A stretch of DNA of 58,491 bases from a virus: positions 1 to 58,491 of the IMG/VR virus record IMGVR_UViG_3300009177_000010. The stretch is one strand, 5' to 3'. The translations under genes and the position numbers were made by a program. Under the pieces are notes generated by a model, which did no database searches, was not told the DNA's origin, and saw nothing but the letters and a program-made list of their open reading frames with translations. Shown here one piece after another: positions 2,345-58,491 of the stretch. The first letter of the stretch is position 1; every line of letters starts with the position of its first letter.

Positions 2345-2445
2345 TTTTTTCTCCTTCAGTGGTTTGCAGGTGGCGACCTGCGGCGTTATTCGAAAATTTC
2401 TCGCGTGCGTATTAGGTATAGTTTTACCAAGGGTGATATGCCTCC

Positions 2446-2679
2446 TCAGGCAGTCACACGATCCAGATTCATCAATGATTCCTGATAAACCCTAATCCAA
2501 CCGAAGTCCCACCGATCTCCCCATTTCATCTTTATCACCATGTCAGAAATGAGTTGCGGCATTCGCGGTAGCTACGATGCCTCGGCTGTGCGGGGTGCGA
2601 CGCAAGCCTGTGTTTTCGTGGTGTAGCCCCATTCAGGGCATTGCTCGATTCCAACCGCGTCGTCCACTTCGCGGTCCAT
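2446..2679 (-). pseudogene. Possible small gene or remnant with an in-frame TAG
   Basis: From an ATG at 2679 a frame of 77 codons runs to TGA at 2446 with one TAG at codon 36 (2572-2574). The translated parts look protein-like (a CPEWGYTTKT segment, then WGDRWDFGWIRVYQ) but I do not recognise them, and there is no clear ribosome site. It may be a decayed gene in the otherwise non-coding 2.35-3.2 kb stretch. Confidence 0.25.
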
Positions 2680-2700
2680 GTGGCGGCGCAGAAAGCAAAA

Positions 2701-2777
2701 AAGCCGTTTAGGTCTCTCAGCTTTCCCCGTGGCAGCGGGGGGATTTAACCCTAGGAAAGGAGAGAACTAAACGGCTT
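2701..2777 (-). ncRNA. Branched structured RNA element 1, 77 nt, ends in a U-run
   Basis: The ends pair perfectly over 11 bp (AAGCCGTTTAG at 2701-2711 with CTAAACGGCTT at 2767-2777). Inside, CTCTC (2714-2718) pairs with GAGAG (2760-2764) and CTTT with AAAG. Two short hairpins close the middle (CCCG/CGGG and GGG/CCC around TTAAAT). On the - strand the closing stem runs directly into TTTTTTGC, as in an intrinsic terminator. Length and architecture match the element at 57202-57278. I read it as a small RNA or attenuator of the leftward early operon. Its family is unknown; the phage C4 antisense RNA is one candidate. Confidence 0.55.
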
Positions 2778-2905
2778 CATCTAGCTCACAGCTTCCTGTG
2801 CTGCCACACAGACGAAGCAATGATTCCACAATTCAATGACTGACTGCAATAGATGCTCAAAAAGAAAACTCAACAGCAGAAAAACTGGAGACAGGCAGGA
2901 GCTGA

Positions 2906-2950
2906 TTGCGTAGGCTCCTTGGCATTCTCCACTCAGGCCGTTCTACGCAA
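2906..2950. other. Inverted repeat (hairpin), 8-bp arms
   Basis: TTGCGTAG at 2906-2913 pairs with CTACGCAA at 2943-2950 around a 29-base loop. It sits between structured elements 1 and 2 in the non-coding stretch. No gene is supported on either strand here. Confidence 0.4.
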
Positions 2951-3061
2951 CGCACCCAGCAGATACTGCATTGACCCGTCATTGATCGAGTGACAAACGC
3001 GCTACGCCATCGGCGGTCTTGCACAACCAGCGTTCAGGGAATGATGACGCGTTGCACGTTT

Positions 3062-3172
3062 GCCACACTGGAACAGTCTACCCCGAAGCGGACAGGGTAG
3101 CGGTGGATCGGCTGATCGCCCTTGTTTGATCCACTGCGCATTTCGCATTTATCGCAACTGCTCCAGTGTGGC
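3062..3172. ncRNA. Branched structured RNA element 2, about 111 nt
   Basis: The outer arms GCCACACTGGA (3062-3072) and TCCAGTGTGGC (3162-3172) are perfect complements, extended by CAGT/ACTG after one mismatch. Inside are CTACCC/GGGTAG (3078-3083 with 3095-3100), GTGGATC/GATCCAC (3103-3109 with 3128-3134) and TGCG/CGCA (about 3135-3147). The result is a closed stem with three inner arms, like a cloverleaf, but I see no tRNA T-loop or CCA end. The strand is undecided because neither side has a U-run. Confidence 0.5.
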
Positions 3173-3200
3173 GGCTGGTTGCGCCAGCCAAGCGTGGTGC

Positions 3201-3416
3201 TTACTTCTTCTTGCCTTTGCCCAGTACCTTATCTGCGCGTGCGTCGATCTGCGCTTCCTTGGCTTTGGACAGATTGCCCTTTTTCACTTGACCTGCGGCG
3301 CGCGCCTTACTGTTGGCGGCATGGCTGCGATCCTGCTGCGGATATTTGCGCTCATCAGGCAAACCGAACTTCTAGTCCGGCAATGCCTTGCGCTCTTTCG
3401 GTGTCAGCAATCCCAT
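3201..3416 (-). CDS. Small phage protein, interrupted by an in-frame TAG at codon 15
   Basis: Reading from an ATG at 3416 (GGAG eight bases upstream) gives MGLLTPKERKALPD, then TAG at 3372-3374, then KFGLPDERKYP and a Lys/Ala-rich tail that ends in GKGKKK and TAA at 3201. The two halves together match a common class of small phage proteins of about 70 residues with a K-LP-x(3)-F-x-L/I-P-x(2)-RKYP core. So the gene is real but broken, suppressed or read through. Its function is unknown. Confidence 0.6.
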
Positions 3417-3447
3417 GGTGATCTCCGGTTAAGTTGCTGCAAGGATT

Positions 3448-38734: not shown

Positions 38735-41208
38735 CGCTGGAATCCTTCACCGTTCGGAGCGCGGCCGGCGGGTTCCGTCGGCGGCGTGGTGGCGTATTGC
38801 GTTGCGGCATTGGCAGCGAGCGTGGCGGCCGACAGTTCCTTTTGCTGACGCAGCTTGGCCGAGACGGAGAACAGCTGCGCCTTGATCTCGTCGGTGCTCA
38901 TTTCCTTCTGGCCGGCTTGCTTGCGCTGCTCGTTCTCGGCATCGATCTGGGCGAAGGCCATCTGCAGCTGGCGGTCCTTGTCCGCTTCGGAAGCATCGAA
39001 CTGCTGGGTCTGGGCAAGCTTCTGCTGCTCGCCCTGCTGCTTCTGCTGGGTATCAGCCTGACGGCCCTGCACCATGATCTTGGCAGCAGTCACGCGCGGA
39101 TCTTCCGGTGGCTGGCGCTGTGCCATGGCCTGCTTCTCCTGCTCGCTGTAGGAGAAAGTATCAGGATCGAAGCGGCGCGACTTCAGGAACTCGGTCATCG
39201 CCTTTTCTGGGCTCATGCCGTAAGCGGGATTCAGGCACAGCTGGATGATCTGCACCATCTCCTGCGCCTGCAGGTCACGCTCGACCAGGGCGGTGGAACA
39301 GCGCGCGACGATCTGGAAGTCGCCTTTCATGTCGTCGTCGTCGCCGTATTCCATCAGCCACGCATAGTAGCGGCGCACATGCGGCTCGGTGATGGAGGAA
39401 TCGAACAGGCGAGCAATGCGGCGCAACACAGAGTTGGCATTGTTGTTCAGGATGGTCAGGCCACCAACGGTATCCGGTGCTGATCCCTGCTGGCCTTGCA
39501 GCAGCATCGGCAGGCCGGTGACATCCTCGGCCATCTTCATGCCGTACTGGATGATGGCCATCAACTCGTTTTGAAGCATTGGGATCACGACGGAGAAGAC
39601 CGGCGCATTGGCGCCAGGTGGCGCATCTTCGTTCTCGGTCCACAGCTTGAGCGGTACGATTTCCCACACGCCGTCTTCCGGCTCGACGCCGCGGCGGATC
39701 ACAATCTGCGGACCAGCAGCCAGGCCGGCATTGTCCATCAGGTTGCGAGTAGCCGCCACGACAATGCGCTGTGCGGTGCGCATCTGGCGCGCCACGCCCA
39801 TGCCCCATGGCATGCCGGGGCGGCGCTTCCACGGGATCACATCGTAGGGATACTCGCCATTGTCCAGCGGATTGAGCGACGCCTTGATGACGTGGTTGTT
39901 CACCATCGTGATCAGTGCCGGGAAGGATTTCTCTTGCGGCAACCCTTCGCAGTCGCAGCCTGCTGCTTCCAGTTCGGCCACGGTGATGATGCCGTAGTAG
40001 TACCAGATTTCGAACAGGTCTTTTGCGGCGAAGGCGTTGGAGAGCAGGTTGCGGTTGTCGGCTTCCTGCTGGCGCGCTGGGCCTTCCTTTAGGCATTGGT
40101 CAATCGATGACGTTAGATAGCCCGGCAAGCCCTTCATATCTTCCAGCTGGCGGCGCGTCTGGCGGTCGCGCTCGAACACGTACGAGCCGTTGTGGATGGA
40201 TTCGCCGCAGGCTGGATCGGGGAACAAGTCCCACGGGTCAACGCGCTTCGACGCGGGTTTGATTTCTTCCACGATGATTAGCTGGTGCACGCCAGTCTGC
40301 GGGTCTTGGCGCCATTCGCAGGAGCGGCGCTTGACTGGCACCGGGCCTTTGATCACGCCGCTGCCCAGCTTGGCTGCATCATCGATCACCTTGCGCATCT
40401 CGGCGTGGTACTGGCACTCATCCATCCAGTCTTCGATCTGGGTCTGGGCACGGCCAGCCTTACGCGCGGCCTCGTCCTTCATGGCGTCGAAGCGCTGTTT
40501 GGCCTGCGACAGTGACATGACCACGCCTTCATATTCGACCTGCGGTTCAGGCGGCGCTGGAGGCTGTGCAGGCTGTCCCGGTGCTGGTTGTCCAGCTGGC
40601 GCCGCAGGTTGTTGCGGTGGTTGCTGCTGCCCCATGCCAAGCATATTGCCGAGGCGCTGCATCATGCCCGGCTGCTGCGGTGGCTGACTTGGCTGTGCGG
40701 CTTGCGCATTCTGATCCGGTGCACTCTGCGCCATCTGCTGCGCTGCCTGTGCGAGTGGCTTGGCTACCAGCCCGGCCTTGGCCAGCTGCGCTTCCAGGCT
40801 TTCGAACATGTCTGGGATCGGCGTCGGCTGGATGGCGAAGTTGCGGTCATCCGTCGGTAGCAGCATGTCGCCTACGCGCGCAGCAGCGGCGTCGACGTAA
40901 GGCTGGGTGATGTTGGGGAAGACAGTGGAACCGGTTACTGGGACGCGGCGCTCATCGATGTTGCCGCCGCCCTGCATCGGCTTGGCGGCGATGGTGACGT
41001 ATTCATGGCGGTTGGCATCGTCATAGCCCTGGTAAAATTCCTCGTCGGAAATCATATCCTGCTCAATGCCAATAGTAGCTTTGGCACTAACTGCGTCACG
41101 ACGCTTTCCCGCCAGAGTAGATGCGAGTGCATTCAAGATATTAAGACGATGCTGCTCCTCATCGGAGAGTTCCACCACCACATAATCGCGCATGTCCTGC
41201 ATGCTCAT
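38731..41208 (-). CDS. Portal protein
   Basis: 825 residues. The region at about 90-150 (TGSTVFPNITQPYVDAAAAR, GDMLLPTDDRNF) and the core (KRRPGMPWGMGVARQMRTAQ, AEDVTGLPMLLQGQQG) are those of podovirus portals. Residues about 185-260 are a Gln/Pro/Ala-rich insert. A long Gln-rich coiled C-terminus (about 690-800) suits the barrel. It makes the dodecameric DNA gate. The ATG lies four bases inside the end of the GIY-YIG gene, and its ribosome site is in that gene. Confidence 0.85.
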   Translation of the reverse strand: MSMQDMRDYVVVELSDEEQHRLNILNALASTLAGKRRDAVSAKATIGIEQDMISDEEFYQGYDDANRHEYVTIAAKPMQGGGNIDERRVPVTGSTVFPNITQPYVDAAAARVGDMLLPTDDRNFAIQPTPIPDMFESLEAQLAKAGLVAKPLAQAAQQMAQSAPDQNAQAAQPSQPPQQPGMMQRLGNMLGMGQQQPPQQPAAPAGQPAPGQPAQPPAPPEPQVEYEGVVMSLSQAKQRFDAMKDEAARKAGRAQTQIEDWMDECQYHAEMRKVIDDAAKLGSGVIKGPVPVKRRSCEWRQDPQTGVHQLIIVEEIKPASKRVDPWDLFPDPACGESIHNGSYVFERDRQTRRQLEDMKGLPGYLTSSIDQCLKEGPARQQEADNRNLLSNAFAAKDLFEIWYYYGIITVAELEAAGCDCEGLPQEKSFPALITMVNNHVIKASLNPLDNGEYPYDVIPWKRRPGMPWGMGVARQMRTAQRIVVAATRNLMDNAGLAAGPQIVIRRGVEPEDGVWEIVPLKLWTENEDAPPGANAPVFSVVIPMLQNELMAIIQYGMKMAEDVTGLPMLLQGQQGSAPDTVGGLTILNNNANSVLRRIARLFDSSITEPHVRRYYAWLMEYGDDDDMKGDFQIVARCSTALVERDLQAQEMVQIIQLCLNPAYGMSPEKAMTEFLKSRRFDPDTFSYSEQEKQAMAQRQPPEDPRVTAAKIMVQGRQADTQQKQQGEQQKLAQTQQFDASEADKDRQLQMAFAQIDAENEQRKQAGQKEMSTDEIKAQLFSVSAKLRQQKELSAATLAANAATQYATTPPTEPAGRAPNGEGFQR

Positions 41209-41984
41209 GCGGCACCACCTTTCAATACCTTGCGACGAGCAATTGAGGCACGCATAGCGTTGCTCATATTTGCGCGAGCTTCATCTGTGGCTTTCCGGCC
41301 AAGTTGCGCTTGACGCATTTTCTGCTTCGACTCTTCCGAATATTTATGGCCGGTCAGAGCTGCAGCAATCTTTGCGCGTGTTTCTTGGGATACCAGGCGA
41401 TTACGAAGTCCTTCAACCTGTTCTGCACTGAGCTTCTTGCCCTTGTTGAAGGCACTGATTTTTCGACGAGTTTCTTCCGAAACAACACGACCGAGATTGT
41501 TCTGACGCATCTTCTCGCGCGATTCAGGCGACATAATTTTGCCGAGATGAGCAGCACGAAGCTTGGCCTTCGTTTCTTCGGAGTGCTTCATGCCGCGACG
41601 GCTGCCGGCTGTGCGCAGCACGTTATAGCCGTGGTCGACAGTCTGGAAGTAATCGAGGAACAGCTGCTCATAGAACAGGACCATATCCGGCGCGCACATC
41701 ATGAGTGGCTTGAAGACGAATGCAGCTTCGCCATACTTGGCCCAGGCACGTTGCAGCTTTTGAGAGTGGTGACGGTTGGCCTTCAACGCATGGCGATGGC
41801 CTTGCAGGCGGTTCTGAATGTTGATAGCCGAGCCGATGTACAGCTTGCCGTTGACGGTATTGGTAATGGCATAGACACCAGAGAGCCGGTTCTTATCCGC
41901 TCCCATCATCACCATGTCGCCCATGCGCACGCCACCCGCGACGCGTCGTTTGATGACTTCCATGCCAGCCTCATTTAGATGCAT
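41205..41984 (-). CDS. GIY-YIG homing endonuclease with NUMOD3 repeats
   Basis: 259 residues. GVYAITN (36-42) and KLYIGSA (47-53) form the GIY-YIG catalytic start, with R59 and E86 positions plausible. From about 125 onward there are repeated SxExxxKxRxxxLG units (KHSEETKAKLRAAHLGK, MSPESREKMRQNNLGR and more), which are NUMOD3 DNA-binding modules. It is inserted between terminase and portal, and its end overlaps the portal start by four bases. It is lower in GC than its neighbours, as expected of a mobile gene. ATG at 41963 is an alternative start. Confidence 0.9.
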   Translation of the reverse strand: MHLNEAGMEVIKRRVAGGVRMGDMVMMGADKNRLSGVYAITNTVNGKLYIGSAINIQNRLQGHRHALKANRHHSQKLQRAWAKYGEAAFVFKPLMMCAPDMVLFYEQLFLDYFQTVDHGYNVLRTAGSRRGMKHSEETKAKLRAAHLGKIMSPESREKMRQNNLGRVVSEETRRKISAFNKGKKLSAEQVEGLRNRLVSQETRAKIAAALTGHKYSEESKQKMRQAQLGRKATDEARANMSNAMRASIARRKVLKGGAA

Positions 41985-42106: not shown

Positions 42107-43570
42107 TTAGTACCCCATGCCTCGGTCCTTGACGCTACGTGCGGCACCATGGCGGCGCGGCTGATCCACAATCGGCAGCTTCCAGTGGTTCGCATCAGCG
42201 TTGACCAGGTAGCGAGTGGCATCCATCAAATGGTCGTTCTCTTTGACGATCTTGCCTTTTTCGTCGCGGCGGTACACGCGATACTCGGCTTTCCAGCTTT
42301 GCAGTGACTTGAAGACCTTGAGGCGCCCGGTGGATGCGCGCTGCCATACTTCCAGAATGCCGGATTCGACGCCGTTGTTCGCGATGTTCAGGCTGAGGCC
42401 TAGGTCTTTATAGTTCTGTAGCAACTGTTCGCCGTCGCGCTGAGCCCTGCCACGTGCTGCCGGGTCGATCTCTCCTGAGATGCGGCCGCGCGCTTTGATG
42501 GCATCTGCATGGATAGATGGCTCAGCCTGCCCGCGGTAATGCTCCGAGTAGAGATAGATGATATCGGCGTCGCGGTCCCATGCCCCGAAGACAGCAGCCG
42601 TGCGGTTCCAACCCACATCCAGGCCGTAGAGGCGCGTCCAGTGCTTCGGAATGGCGAAGTCATCCACGAACAGCATGTCTTCTTACACTGGGTATATCGC
42701 GCCAGCACCAAGGCTCGGAATGCCCTTTGATCTGGCATCGCGAAGATATGGCGGCGTCTCGGCCAGCATCAGCTTCTTCTGCTGCTCGGAGAGGTGGGGC
42801 ACATCGTCCCAGCCGGCCATCACCATCGCACGCTCGCCAGTCACGGCCACGCCTTCGCTGATCTCACCATCAGGCAGGTAGGTCATGACGACCGGCGTCA
42901 GGCCGCGCAGGGGCGTGAACGTCTCCATCAGAATGCCATTGGTGGTCATCAAGCGCAGGATGCATTCGCTGCGGATCGACTCGTTGGATTCCTCATCAAG
43001 CCAGATCACATCCTGTTCCGTACCTTGGAATGATTCGCGGCCCTGGTCGTAGGACTTGAACACGAGGATCGAATCGCCGTCGTAGTTGCCGTCCTGGTCG
43101 TAATGCTTGACCGTCAGCGTGTCGACCGCCTCTGGCACGCCTGACTTCGAGGTCCACTTGACGATGTCCTCTTTCGGGATCAGACCGGTGCCAAACTGTC
43201 CCCATGCACCCAGCAGCTTGTTCTGGATAATGTCACGTACCGATTTGCCGGTGTCGCCGGCCGCCCATGAGCGCACCGGAGCATCGAACAACGCACCTTC
43301 CCACCACGCCGGATAACGGCCGGTCAGGTGCAGCGCCATCTCATAGCCGCCACCGCCCTCGGTCTTGCCGACCCGATTAGCAGCCATGAAGCAGCGGATG
43401 GACAGCTTCTGCCCCAGCTTGAAGAACAGCATATGCTTGGCGTACAGCTCGCGGCGCAGCGGTCCAGTCGCCGGGTAATAGCTAAACAGCTTGTGCGTAT
43501 TGAACCATTCCGCCTTGGCGTCTAGTGCCATGGCCAGGGAAACGCGTGGGTCGAGGGCTTCCAGGTCCAT
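42107..43570 (-). CDS. terL: Terminase large subunit, interrupted by an in-frame TAA at codon 296
   Basis: 487 codons. Walker A is AANRVGKT (63-70) and Walker B VIWLDEE (188-194); the coupling motif region follows. The ATPase half ends IPSLGAGAIYPV, TAA at 42683-42685, then EDMLFVDDFAIPKHWTRLYG and LDVGWN with the first nuclease Asp (318). Families of this type run from YPV straight into a xED/EED stretch, so it is one gene with a nonsense codon. If the stop is real, the nuclease half would need a restart; the ATG at 42676 has no good ribosome site. It packages DNA and cuts the concatemer. Confidence 0.85.
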
Positions 43571-54432: not shown

Positions 54433-55407
54433 TCAGTAACCGCGCCGCTTTCGTCGTTCTTCGGCGCGGTCAATTTCAGCTTGCTTTGGCTTGTCGCCTT
54501 CGTGCACTTCATCACGATAGCCGTATTCCGGCACGCGCAGATTGCCGCAGTAAGCATTGGTGCCATCCCAATAGGTGCGCCAGAATGGGCCGGCCGGCTC
54601 CTTGTTACGATAGCGGTTGATTTCCAGGTCGTAGACTTCGGCCTTCAACATACCCCACTCGGCGCGGTATGCTTCAAGGCGGTAGCCATAGCTCTTCTCG
54701 ACGCCGGCAATGCGCACATGCGGCAGATAGGTCGCCACAATCGCTAGGAATACGTCGTGCCGAAGGTACATGGAGCCGCCGATAAAGCGGCGATACCATG
54801 GCTTATGCTCCTTCTTTCGCTCCCACTCATACCGTTGCGATGAATCGCAGCAGGTGACCTCGACGTAGCCTGGCGGCGCTCCAACATGCCATGGACCGCG
54901 CAGCACCAATTGCGTGCCGTCATCCATATCCAGCCAGATGTTTGCCCCACCGTAGCCGTCCTGCTTGGTCGTGGCCAACACTTCGACTTCGACCCATTCC
55001 CCCGGCTCAAAGGAAGATTCATAATCTTCAGTAGAAGTAAAGACGTTCGAAATGCCAGGCTTCTGCGGCACATAGTCATGCAGCTTACCGTCAGTGGTGC
55101 GGAAACGGCGCATTGCGGTCATGCTGACCGCGCCACTGTGATGATGTTGCTGCAAGCGGCCATCTGGATGCCGCGCCATATACATGCCACCCTTTTCGCG
55201 CATCCATACCTTTCCATCCCAGTCGTTCACCTTACCGCGCACGTTCAGTTTGATGGTGGGTGCATTGGCAACGCCATCGTGCCAATCGACGTGTGCACCA
55301 CGCACCCAGTCAGGAAGCTGCTGTCTGCCGGTCGGCAACGGTATGTCCACCCATGCGCCATTGCGGGAACCGGAGATGACGTTCATTTGTTCATCGCTCA
55401 GCATCAT
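54433..55407 (-). CDS. Hypothetical protein of the recombination operon
   Basis: 324 residues, rich in Trp, Tyr, Arg and His, mixed alpha/beta. Its start overlaps the ATPase stop by four bases, so it is made with it. No nuclease or helicase motif is visible to me. It might be the partner of the SbcC-like ATPase in the place of a nuclease, but I see no catalytic pattern. Confidence 0.5.
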   Translation of the reverse strand: MMLSDEQMNVISGSRNGAWVDIPLPTGRQQLPDWVRGAHVDWHDGVANAPTIKLNVRGKVNDWDGKVWMREKGGMYMARHPDGRLQQHHHSGAVSMTAMRRFRTTDGKLHDYVPQKPGISNVFTSTEDYESSFEPGEWVEVEVLATTKQDGYGGANIWLDMDDGTQLVLRGPWHVGAPPGYVEVTCCDSSQRYEWERKKEHKPWYRRFIGGSMYLRHDVFLAIVATYLPHVRIAGVEKSYGYRLEAYRAEWGMLKAEVYDLEINRYRNKEPAGPFWRTYWDGTNAYCGNLRVPEYGYRDEVHEGDKPKQAEIDRAEERRKRRGY

Positions 55408-57179
55408 GCCGCCTCCTGCTGTTCTTGGCGAACGATGCTGCCATTCTCGATCCAGTGTGATTCCACCGAATCTGGCAGCGAAGTTGGCTGCTGCTTCAAC
55501 GTGGCAAAGAGGAGAGCTGTACTCAGCTCGCCGTTCTCGACCAGCATGTCAAGCCAGCCGAGAAGTTCAGCGCGTGCTGGCACATCAAGCACGTCCACGC
55601 GATCCAGCACCAGGCACTTGATGCCGGACACATCGGCCACGGCCTGCGCCACCATAGCATCGGCGCGCCACTTGAACGACTCGGATTCCATCAGGTAGGA
55701 GCGCTTGCCGACGCGGATAGCCATGTCGGACTCGATGGTGACGCGCGGCCAGCCGGTATCCAGCGCAGCCTGTTCCAGATTGGCATTGATCGGCACCAGC
55801 GCCTCTGCCAGCAGTTGTGCCGGGATGCCATCGGGCGACAGCAGATCGGCAATCTTCGTCCACGCCAGCACATCCTGGTGATGCTTAGCGGCTTGCTCCG
55901 TCTTCTGTTTCGCTGCTGCGATGCCGCGCTCGGCTGCTTCGAAGTCCAGTACCTTGTTGGCCAGAAGCACACGCTTTGCTCGCGCGGCTTCGATCAGGGC
56001 CGACACTTCACTGATTTCCTGGCTGGCATCAACGGCATCTTCTGCAGGCTCCAGCGCATCATACTGGCCCTTAGCCATCTTGGCGGCGTCAAGGTCGCGT
56101 TGCAGATTAGCGGCCTTGTTCACCAGCACCTGCAGGCCGCGCTCATGGTCCGGCAGGCTCGCGACGGCCGCAGCATCCGGTGCGCCCGCTTCGGTGATCT
56201 CGCCATGCTCCTTGGCATAGGCCGCCAGTAGATTGGCGTGGCGGATCGCCGTCTCTTTCCCGGTTGGCACGAATTCCTTGATGAAGCGTGCCATGTCATG
56301 CACCAGACCCTGCTTGCCGCCGCGCGCACGCTCGCGCATGGCTTCCACCTTCTGCTGGAATTCGTCGTGCTCCTTGATGCCAGCCTCCAGCAAAAGTGCC
56401 AGCTCTGGCACTTTCTTGGCCGACGCTTCCAGTTGTGCGCGACGCTCGGTATTGCGTGCTGCGGTGTCTTGCTGCGCTTTGATCGCGCCCAACGACTCGT
56501 TCAGCGTGGCGGTCGCTGCATCATGATCGGCCAGTTCCTGCTTGAGCACGGTCAGGTCGCCCGATGGCATCTGCGGCACTTCCGCCGCCCAGCATTCCGC
56601 CTGCTTCGGTCCCCAGGTCAGATTAGCGTTCTGGCGCCAGGCACCCTTCGCTTTGGTCGCCTCTTCCTTGGCATAATCGACGCCGCCCTGCAGGCCGGTC
56701 AACAGCATGTGCAGTACGGCCTCGGACTTGGCCTTGTCGGCCCCGCGCTCGATCAGCAGCGGCAGGATCGTATTGGGCGTCAGCTTCTTGTCCGACAGGC
56801 TCAGGATGAATTTGCGGCGCTCCTTCTCGTCCATCTGGGCGAAGCGCTGGCCGTCAAGCGAGACGCGCATGGCTTCGCTGATCTCAGGGCCGGTGAAATC
56901 GCCTTTAGGAACGTTGAAGCCGAATGCCTGATCAACATTGTTGTCACACACTACCAGTACGCCGCCAGCCTTCTGGCCTTCCTTCACCAGCGCGCTGTAA
57001 TCCTTTTTCTTGGTGATGCCACGCATATCCTGCTGGGCGATCGCCATGAGCACGCAATCCCTAATGGAGCTTTTCCCCGAACCATTGGAACCTGCAAAAA
57101 GCGTGATCGGCTTCTGCGGCTGGATGCGGACCTCGCCGATGGTCAGCACGTTCTGGATCTGAATATCTGTTACCTTCAT
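55404..57179 (-). CDS. SbcC/Rad50/RecF-like coiled-coil ATPase
   Basis: 591 residues. Walker A is GSNGSGKSS (30-38), Walker B is CLVLDRVDVLD near the C-terminus, and the middle is a long coiled coil (about 200-450), as in a short SMC/SbcC-like protein. The ATG at 57179 (GAGGTC upstream) begins the family's usual first strand (MKVTDIQIQNVLTIGEVRI). It lies in one operon with the exonuclease and RecT-like genes, so a role in end processing or repair is likely. A structured RNA lies just before the start. Confidence 0.8.
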   Translation of the reverse strand: MKVTDIQIQNVLTIGEVRIQPQKPITLFAGSNGSGKSSIRDCVLMAIAQQDMRGITKKKDYSALVKEGQKAGGVLVVCDNNVDQAFGFNVPKGDFTGPEISEAMRVSLDGQRFAQMDEKERRKFILSLSDKKLTPNTILPLLIERGADKAKSEAVLHMLLTGLQGGVDYAKEEATKAKGAWRQNANLTWGPKQAECWAAEVPQMPSGDLTVLKQELADHDAATATLNESLGAIKAQQDTAARNTERRAQLEASAKKVPELALLLEAGIKEHDEFQQKVEAMRERARGGKQGLVHDMARFIKEFVPTGKETAIRHANLLAAYAKEHGEITEAGAPDAAAVASLPDHERGLQVLVNKAANLQRDLDAAKMAKGQYDALEPAEDAVDASQEISEVSALIEAARAKRVLLANKVLDFEAAERGIAAAKQKTEQAAKHHQDVLAWTKIADLLSPDGIPAQLLAEALVPINANLEQAALDTGWPRVTIESDMAIRVGKRSYLMESESFKWRADAMVAQAVADVSGIKCLVLDRVDVLDVPARAELLGWLDMLVENGELSTALLFATLKQQPTSLPDSVESHWIENGSIVRQEQQEAA

Positions 57180-57201
57180 GTTGTAGACCTCAAAAGAAAA
57201 A

Positions 57202-57278
57202 GCCATCACCTGCCCTCTCACCTGTTGCCAGGTGGTGGAATACGGAGTTCAGTTCTCCGCAAGAGGGCATGTGATGGC
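57202..57278 (-). ncRNA. Branched structured RNA element 3, 77 nt, upstream of the ATPase gene
   Basis: Outer stem of 17 positions with one mismatch: GCCATCACCTGCCCTCT (57202-57218) with AGAGGGCATGTGATGGC (57262-57278). Inside are two perfect hairpins, CACCTG-TTGC-CAGGTG (57219-57234) and CGGAG/CTCCG (57243-57259): a three-way junction. On the - strand TTTTTCTTTT follows, then the ATPase ribosome site. It may be a terminating small RNA, or a leader that decides read-through into the ATPase gene. Same length and plan as element 1 at 2701. The phage C4 antisense RNA family is a candidate that a covariance search can test. Confidence 0.65.
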
Positions 57279-57325
57279 TCACTGATTTATGTTTGGTTGC
57301 CGGATTCCACTCCGTCAACACCTGC

Positions 57326-57354
57326 ATTCTTGCAATACTGCTGAGGAAAGTCAA
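57326..57354 (-). promoter_or_regulatory. Putative promoter for the structured RNA/ATPase unit
   Basis: On the - strand TTGACT (57354-57349), 17 bases, AAGAAT (57331-57326). Transcription would begin about 40 bases before structured element 3. This supports an independent unit inside the leftward operon. Confidence 0.45.
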
Positions 57355-57378
57355 CAAGCCGGTGTCCCGGCCTGACGC

Positions 57379-58125
57379 TTATTCGATATCGCTATTCGCG
57401 ACCGCCTTGGTACGCTTGCGGCCACCAGTGATCGGCGCCACGTTGTCGGCCACTTCCGGCGCAGCTTCAATGGCCAGCACTTCGGCAGGCACTTCGCTGC
57501 CAGCACCGAACATCTTCTCGGCTTCCTTGCGCGCATCGCTCATGCGGTCGGGTTGCTTGTCCAAGTCCATCACTTGCTGGAAGTTATCGCCCGCGACTTC
57601 TTCTTCGGCCGACGACAGGCTGATGTGCACGTTCTGCTTGTTGCAGCGGATCAGGCTCGGCGCCACTTCTTCGTCGTAGTCGCTGAACTGGCAGCGGAAC
57701 TGAATCTTGACGGTGCCGCCGTCGAGCATGGTCAGCTTGAACTTGTTGGCGCGGCCGCCGGCCATGATGACCGTGCTGTGATCGTCGTCTGGGTCGTGGA
57801 TGGTCAGCTTCACGCGCGGGATTTCCCAGTCGTAGGCCAGCGGGCCGATCTGCGGGTGCTTCAGCTTGCGCATGAAGTCTTCTTCCACGTCGCGCTGGCG
57901 GTCTTGCTCGTAGAACGATTCGATCAAGCCGGGGCGAATCTTCTTCAGGATGGAGTTTGGTGCGCTCAGTTCGAACTTCAGGTCGCAGGCTGGCACTGGA
58001 TCATCGCCATGCATCTCGGTGCGCGGATTCCAGTGCACGAACAGCGCACGCTCTTTGATGAGTTCGAATGCCAAGTAGGCGGCAACCGGGGCTTGTTCTG
58101 CTGCTTCGATGACTTCTTCGGACAT
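57379..58125 (-). CDS. Unknown protein of the recombination operon (possible ssDNA-binding partner)
   Basis: 248 residues. Beta-rich core at about 20-170 (AYLAFELIKERALFVHWNPR, then KLTIHDPDDDHSTVIMAGGR), followed by a helical part and a basic tail ending RKRTKAVANSDIE. The tail is like that of the RecT-like protein coded immediately upstream. Place between annealing protein and ATPase suggests a helper in recombination such as an SSB-like protein. No OB-fold motif can be proven by eye. Confidence 0.55.
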   Translation of the reverse strand: MSEEVIEAAEQAPVAAYLAFELIKERALFVHWNPRTEMHGDDPVPACDLKFELSAPNSILKKIRPGLIESFYEQDRQRDVEEDFMRKLKHPQIGPLAYDWEIPRVKLTIHDPDDDHSTVIMAGGRANKFKLTMLDGGTVKIQFRCQFSDYDEEVAPSLIRCNKQNVHISLSSAEEEVAGDNFQQVMDLDKQPDRMSDARKEAEKMFGAGSEVPAEVLAIEAAPEVADNVAPITGGRKRTKAVANSDIE

Positions 58126-58163: not shown

Positions 58164-58491
58164 TTATTCGATGTCGCCTGCGGCACGTGCGCGCGTACGG
58201 CGCGAGGGTTGCTGTTGAGTCTGCTCGGCTTGCATGCTGCGTTCGTAATCCAGTTCTTCGGGCGTTTTCTCGCGTTCTGATTCTGGCTTTTGCTCTGCCT
58301 GTGGCTGCTCGGCAACCTCGGCCTGAGGCTGCGGCTCTTGTACTGTCTGCTCTGGCGCAGCTGGGCGGAGTTCATCCAACGTCACCGGGCTCTGCTTTGC
58401 ATCGGCTGCATAGGTCGGCGGCTGGTTGATGTCGATGATGTCGCGCGCCTCATCAGCAGTCTGCCCCATGCCCATCACGATATCTGGCGCA
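58164..58491 (-). CDS. RecT-like annealing protein, C-terminal part (wraps the ends)
   Basis: This is the continuation of the gene that starts at 839; bases 58369-58491 duplicate 1-123. It encodes a Gln/Glu/Pro-rich linker followed by a short basic patch and the C-terminus ending RTRARAAGDIE. The next gene downstream ends in a very similar basic patch plus DIE, which hints at a common binding partner for the two proteins. There is no fold to recognise in this tail. Confidence 0.7.
   Translation of the reverse strand, partial: APDIVMGMGQTADEARDIIDINQPPTYAADAKQSPVTLDELRPAAPEQTVQEPQPQAEVAEQPQAEQKPESEREKTPEELDYERSMQAEQTQQQPSRRTRARAAGDIE
58369..58491. repeat. Terminal direct repeat, right copy
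   Basis: Exact second copy of bases 1-123. Removing it gives a 58,368-bp circle in which the recombinase-like gene is uninterrupted. Confidence 0.95.

Follow-up and report, generated by a model that had tools for sequence, protein, structure and literature searches.

Immediately ahead of an SbcC-like ATPase gene, the virus record IMGVR_UViG_3300009177_000010 (58,491 bases, analysed over its whole length and referred to below as the window) carries a three-way-junction RNA at 57200-57280, designated E1, which is the strongest RNA-structure signal of this 58.5-kb genome. We interpret E1, with confidence that is evenly balanced, as a self-contained C4/IsrK-like antisense small-RNA gene of about 125-130 nt, lodged as a cassette between a gene of the recombination operon, gene A, and the SbcC-like gene. 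The window contains one more RNA with this kind of architecture, E2, at 2701-2777.

A 123-bp direct repeat is present at both ends of the window, and their join lies within a RecT-like gene (1-839 and 58164-58491); the genome is therefore circular or circularly permuted, and probably complete. Genes are carried by the minus strand from 58 kb down to 15 kb. Over the joined ends, the order is exo (1719-859), RecT, gene A (58125-57379), E1 and the SbcC-like ATPase (57179-55404), and this block is a lambda-like recombination operon. Relatives of the phage point to a host among the Burkholderiales. Elsewhere on the minus strand, a homing-endonuclease-like gene adjoins a separately encoded terminase nuclease domain (41205-41984 and 42107-42676), and the terminase gene may thus be split.

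Read 5' to 3' on the minus strand, the E1 region consists of a GC hairpin, a promoter-like sequence, a leader hairpin (P0), the three-way junction, the U-run UUUUUCUUUU, the Shine-Dalgarno GAGG and the ATG of the ATPase gene. The features are as follows:

57379-58125, minus strand: gene A, the upstream neighbour of E1; its homologues precede SbcC in relatives.
57355-57374, minus strand: small GC hairpin behind gene A, just outside the insert; in relatives its counterpart lies within the short gap that separates gene A from SbcC.
57326-57354, minus strand: promoter-like TTGACT-N17-AAGAAT with an extended -10 TG, the first bases of the insert (consensus match).
57296-57319, minus strand: predicted leader hairpin P0, GUUG-A-CGGA[GUGGAA]UCCG-G-CAAC, with its loop at 57310-57305.
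57200-57280, minus strand: predicted three-way-junction RNA E1, formed of the outer stem P1, the hairpin P2, the linker J2/3 and the hairpin P3.
57192-57201, minus strand: U-run UUUUUCUUUU abutting the outer stem, the putative end of an intrinsic terminator.
55404-57179, minus strand: SbcC-like AAA ATPase gene, 3' of E1 (phrog_77, E = 1.9e-21; Pfam AAA_23).

The promoter-like boxes, TTGACT (57354-57349) and AAGAAT (57331-57326), match the consensus at 9 of 12 positions. The outer stem P1 is formed by 10 + 8 bp, 57280-57271 and 57269-57262 pairing with 57218-57211 and 57209-57200, and is interrupted by a single A.G mismatch. It closes two hairpins, P2 (57261-57241, loop AACUGAA) and P3 (57234-57219, loop GCAA), which are separated by the linker J2/3, UUCCAC (57240-57235). 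Immediately beyond the U-run come the Shine-Dalgarno (57191-57188) and the ATG (57179) of the ATPase gene, a start that is backed by homologues. Upstream of that start the SbcC frame crosses the U-run and meets no stop codon as far as an ATG and a GTG within the stem (57177-57221, minus strand). An earlier note, made from the letters alone, had described a three-way-junction RNA before an SbcC-like gene, with an outer stem, two inner hairpins, TTGACT-N17-AAGAAT and a U-run; every part that it named was found, on the minus strand, the same as that of the ATPase gene, the outer stem being the 10 + 8 bp with one mismatch given above. The note made no mention of P0 and its complementary loop, of where the insert begins and ends, of E2, or of the circularity of the phage genome.

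None of 200 shuffles was as stable as the predicted E1 fold (z = -5.6 for the plus and -5.7 for the minus strand). When both strands of the entire window were scanned, E1 ranked first (z = -7.1, minus) and second (z = -5.1, plus) and E2 third, in a scan of 12 shuffles per site of which the ranking alone is meaningful. The window has four inverted repeats whose arms measure 15 bp or more and differ by no more than one mismatch, and the two that reach 18 bp are those of E1 and E2.

The distance between the gene A stop codon and the SbcC ATG is 43-69 nt in five relatives versus 199 nt in the window. In all five, the short gap holds one small GC hairpin; the window retains a GC hairpin right behind gene A, and its extra sequence spans exactly from the -35 box to the U-run. 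Because these five relatives have the short gap and a like hairpin without the cassette, we consider E1 to be an insert, its loss in all five relatives being less likely. The promoter-like match is by itself within chance (three found versus 5.9 expected in 16.5 kb), but it gains weight because it is positioned at the boundary of the insert. In another locus, L003, the place of E1 is occupied by a short ORF of approximately 95 amino acids followed by a GC hairpin. In tailed phages, morons are units that bring along a promoter and a terminator and are inserted between genes of the same orientation. E1 resembles them in being an insert that has a promoter-like sequence at one end and a U-run at the other and is absent between the same genes in relatives, and both moron-type features, a candidate promoter and a candidate terminator, can be read in it; it differs in that E1 encodes an RNA whereas morons encode proteins. 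That E1 is an RNA gene equipped with a separate promoter and terminator, as the earlier note proposed, is thus supported both by the anatomy of E1 and by the relatives that are devoid of the insert.

The whole 6-nt loop of P0, GUGGAA, is complementary to the whole 6-nt linker UUCCAC (6/6). In a hairpin-loop test, in which the leader is shuffled and a loop complementary to an unpaired segment is sought, this match had p = 0.0012, and a plain 6-mer complementarity test gave p = 0.05-0.07. As the test was framed after the match had been seen, the leader-loop match of E1, taken as a single case, is suggestive and no proof. A second complementarity of 5 nt links ACUGA of the P2 loop to UCAGU, located just 5' of P1.

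The second RNA of the window also has a matched leader loop:

2796-2811, minus strand: E2 leader hairpin CUGUG[UGGCAG]CACAG, its loop complementary to the hairpin-2 loop CUGCCA (2735-2730).
2701-2777, minus strand: E2, an 18-bp stem with one mismatch, a bulge, two inner hairpins and a U-run, identified by the inverted-repeat scan, the fold and the z-scan.

The E2 leader loop matches the hairpin-2 loop at 6 of 6 positions (p = 0.0074, hairpin-loop test). A clear homologue of E2 was found at L156:10720-10796 in the relative record G003 (z = -6.6), the SbcC of which is 48% identical; here the leader loop GGUGGGC is complementary to the hairpin-2 segment GCCCACC at 7 of 7 positions (p = 0.011 in the hairpin test and 0.005 in the plain test). 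The sequences of E2 and L156 differ and yet each pair still matches, indicating that the loop partners have changed together. In both RNAs the leader could instead pair with sequence 3' of the U-run, giving an alternative fold. E2 itself sits in an ORF-poor stretch of about 1.1 kb (2345-3447), which also contains a 16-bp inverted repeat at 3062-3172; this repeat is predicted to close a four-way junction, has no U-run and gave no match in Rfam or by blastn.

Patterns built on the E2 stem brought two further phage contigs, L180 and L166. The RNA of L180 lies 3' of NinG, in a nin-type region. At L166:12640-12900 (minus strand), a branched RNA is located immediately before a ribosome site and displays a C4-like logic without matching C4. 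L166 fails the hairpin-loop test; its leader segment GAAAGAAGC nevertheless forms a 9-nt complement to a hairpin loop (p = 0.001). Part of this leader segment recurs in the Shine-Dalgarno region of the next gene, GGGGAAAG, which is complementary to the hairpin loop over 5 nt, a match with p = 0.31 on its own. The matches of the leader and of the Shine-Dalgarno follow the b1/b2 logic of C4, the downstream one alone being not significant. Since the interior of the stem differs from that of E2 in both L180 and L166, their homology beyond the stem is less certain. Of the contigs returned by the two loose patterns, most were unrelated matches, L165 is G003 itself, and L180 alone represents an additional genuine structure. 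The stem pattern occurred in none of 793 genomes from the two families around Herbaspirillum and Paraburkholderia.

The outer stems of E2, L156, L180 and L166 were aligned by hand, one bulged base being skipped in L166; in this alignment of four RNAs, 8 of the 18 columns are variable, and in 7 of these both sides have changed, in a compensatory manner that preserves the pair except in one cell. The conserved stem of this family, GCCGUUUAG/CUAARCGGC with its U-run, is not matched by the E1 sequence. E1 shares the design of the family, namely an 18-bp stem with one mismatch, two hairpins, a U-run and a matched leader loop. E1 and E2 are thus linked by their design and by the leader-loop rule, and not through shared sequence.

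The control of phage immunity by a small antisense RNA has its textbook example in C4, which the earlier note had named as its best guess for E1. As a statement of family membership, this guess was not upheld: the Rfam C4 model (RF01695) did not match E1 at the gathering score or at E <= 10, although it finds a real C4 with 59.9 bits in NC_030909.1, a phage with a distant SbcC relative. A scan of E1 against Rfam, C4 included, at gathering and permissive thresholds returned chance-level matches only and assigned it to no family, and no tRNA or tmRNA was detected at E1. As an analogy, the guess stands: E1 is a three-way junction of the size of C4, and the loop of its leader hairpin is the complement of the linker in the junction, which is also the arrangement of isrK/C4. 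Like the C4 RNAs of P1 and P7, it is a phage RNA of similar size with a long outer stem that closes two hairpins and exposes a linker and a loop, and it is preceded by a hairpin with a 6-nt loop complementary to the linker, an a1-type feature that E1 shows at 6 of 6 positions. A comparable arrangement is seen in the Pseudomonas phage P54, in which the isrK loop UUGGCC is complementary to the C4 linker GGCCAA and recurs in a hairpin that precedes the antirepressor. There are also differences. The E1 linker lies between its two hairpins, whereas that of C4 follows the second hairpin; and a U-run directly abuts the stem of E1, whereas C4 is cut from a longer transcript, from which it is released by RNase P (PMC5320573). 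In C4, a' and b' pair with the target mRNA, b' partly covering the ribosome site and a' giving specificity (PMC5320573); neither an antirepressor gene nor an a2/b2 target was found downstream of E1.

The IsrK covariance model (RF01394) did not match E1 either, although it does find its member in L014. IsrK of Gifsy-1 is likewise a short RNA of a phage that has a dedicated promoter and ends at an intrinsic terminator ahead of downstream genes, and the short RNA and its read-through mRNA can interact (PMC4825925); it differs in being a row of hairpins, whereas E1 is a three-way junction. A third comparison is with phage anti-sRNAs, of which AgvB of EHEC prophages is an example and which bear no sequence relation to E1: a short terminated phage sRNA without a neighbouring target gene would fit a decoy for host RNAs (PMC12197685).

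On the reading of E1 as an antisense RNA gene, polymerase would start near 57319 and mostly stop at the U-run, releasing a stable short RNA. The linker UUCCAC and the P2 loop AACUGAA may then be its antisense segments, like a' and b' in C4, and the leader loop GUGGAA may reproduce the target within the same transcript, much as a1 does upstream of C4. This loop could either cap the linker in the finished RNA or mark read-through transcripts as targets, a mode of action with a precedent in IsrK, the short form of which binds the mRNA that arises by read-through of its own terminator (PMC4825925). Transcripts that read through, or operon transcripts under phage antitermination, would continue into SbcC; when antitermination does not occur, transcripts would end about 12 nt before the SbcC ATG and E1 would lower SbcC expression. 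It had been suggested in the earlier note that E1 could switch expression of the ATPase gene. The part of this suggestion that holds is that a terminator at this place would necessarily affect transcription into the gene; the antisense match to the SbcC ribosome site was not convincing (p = 0.26), and a specific antisense effect of E1 on SbcC is not supported. No convincing bipartite target (GUGGAA followed by UCAGU) was found elsewhere in the window.

These empty target searches are also what would be expected if E1 were just a strong branched intrinsic terminator or attenuator between gene A and SbcC, accompanied by a promoter and devoid of any function in trans, with antitermination deciding on SbcC. 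We regard this explanation as possible, though on the whole unlikely. The long stem abuts the U-run shortly before the SbcC ribosome site, and terminators within antiterminated operons are common in lambda-like phages. However, the two inner hairpins and the matched leader loop would be superfluous for a terminator, a promoter placed ahead of a terminator yields a short RNA and not an SbcC mRNA, and E2 and L156 repeat the design of E1 with the loop pair re-matched.

It is improbable that E1 serves for RNase III processing or as a 5' stabiliser of the operon mRNA, its long stem being cut or protecting the SbcC message. A stem as long as 18 bp, with a single mismatch and placed between two genes of the same operon, would suit such a role, but it would account neither for a promoter-like sequence and a U-run exactly at the ends of the insert nor for the matched leader loop, and relatives have no such stem between the same genes. 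We consider it highly improbable that E1 acts as DNA, as a cruciform, a recombination site or a mobile repeat, the RNA fold being a by-product of inverted repeats. E1 is an insert, it adjoins a recombination gene and it gives good folds on both strands, all of which would be compatible with a DNA element; but the promoter and the U-run are on one strand only, G-U pairs are kept on the transcribed strand in the stems of the E2 family (columns 2, 7, 13 and 18), and among phages, plasmids and virus contigs no copy was found besides that of one sister contig. In this contig, IMGVR_UViG_3300010397_000116, the single further copy is identical over the RNA; blastn of E1 against phages and plasmids gave chance matches only, and E1 is not a known repeat in the collections searched. 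Finally, that E1 encodes a 26-amino-acid peptide (MPSCGELNSVFHHLATGERAGDGFFF, minus strand) with the stem as a by-product is barely credible and was rejected, since its frame, although uninterrupted between an ATG in the stem and a TGA ahead of the SbcC ribosome site, has no clear Shine-Dalgarno and no Pfam match and found tblastn matches only by chance, inside unrelated genes; no protein frame within E1 has support.

The covariance models R1 and R2 found nothing among the SbcC relatives (80 viral and 55 genomic loci) and their whole records. Weak covariance-model matches in three Burkholderiales genomes were judged to be due to chance: that in L150 begins right behind a long ORF and retains little of the outer stem, that in L151 is a low-scoring end-to-end match with a long insertion and no U-run, and that in L152 lies within a long open frame. 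A different RNA from E1 was observed in Pseudomonas phage phi297, immediately 3' of the SbcC gene (L010:4287-4369): a branched element with a 22-bp stem and z = -6.5. At least 42 records of Pseudomonas phages conserve this element, with recombination genes (SbcC or RdgC/LexA-like) on one side of it and a DNA methyltransferase on the other; it is mostly unannotated (one record calls it a terminator) and has no match in Rfam.

Returning to E1 as an antisense RNA gene, we tentatively propose that E1, E2 and their relatives form a class of phage antisense RNAs apart from C4, which would travel as promoter-to-terminator cassettes and in which the target copy in the leader hairpin would co-evolve with the inner loop or linker, exchange of the loop pair altering immunity or target specificity. 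Such a class could be searched for by its signature: a long stem with two hairpins and a U-run, preceded by a hairpin of which the entire loop is the complement of an inner loop or linker. If this proposal is true, a logic of the C4 type would recur in sequence unrelated to C4, in the form of an insertable cassette and two times in a single phage, which would suggest that RNAs of this kind are commoner in phages than the existing covariance models show.
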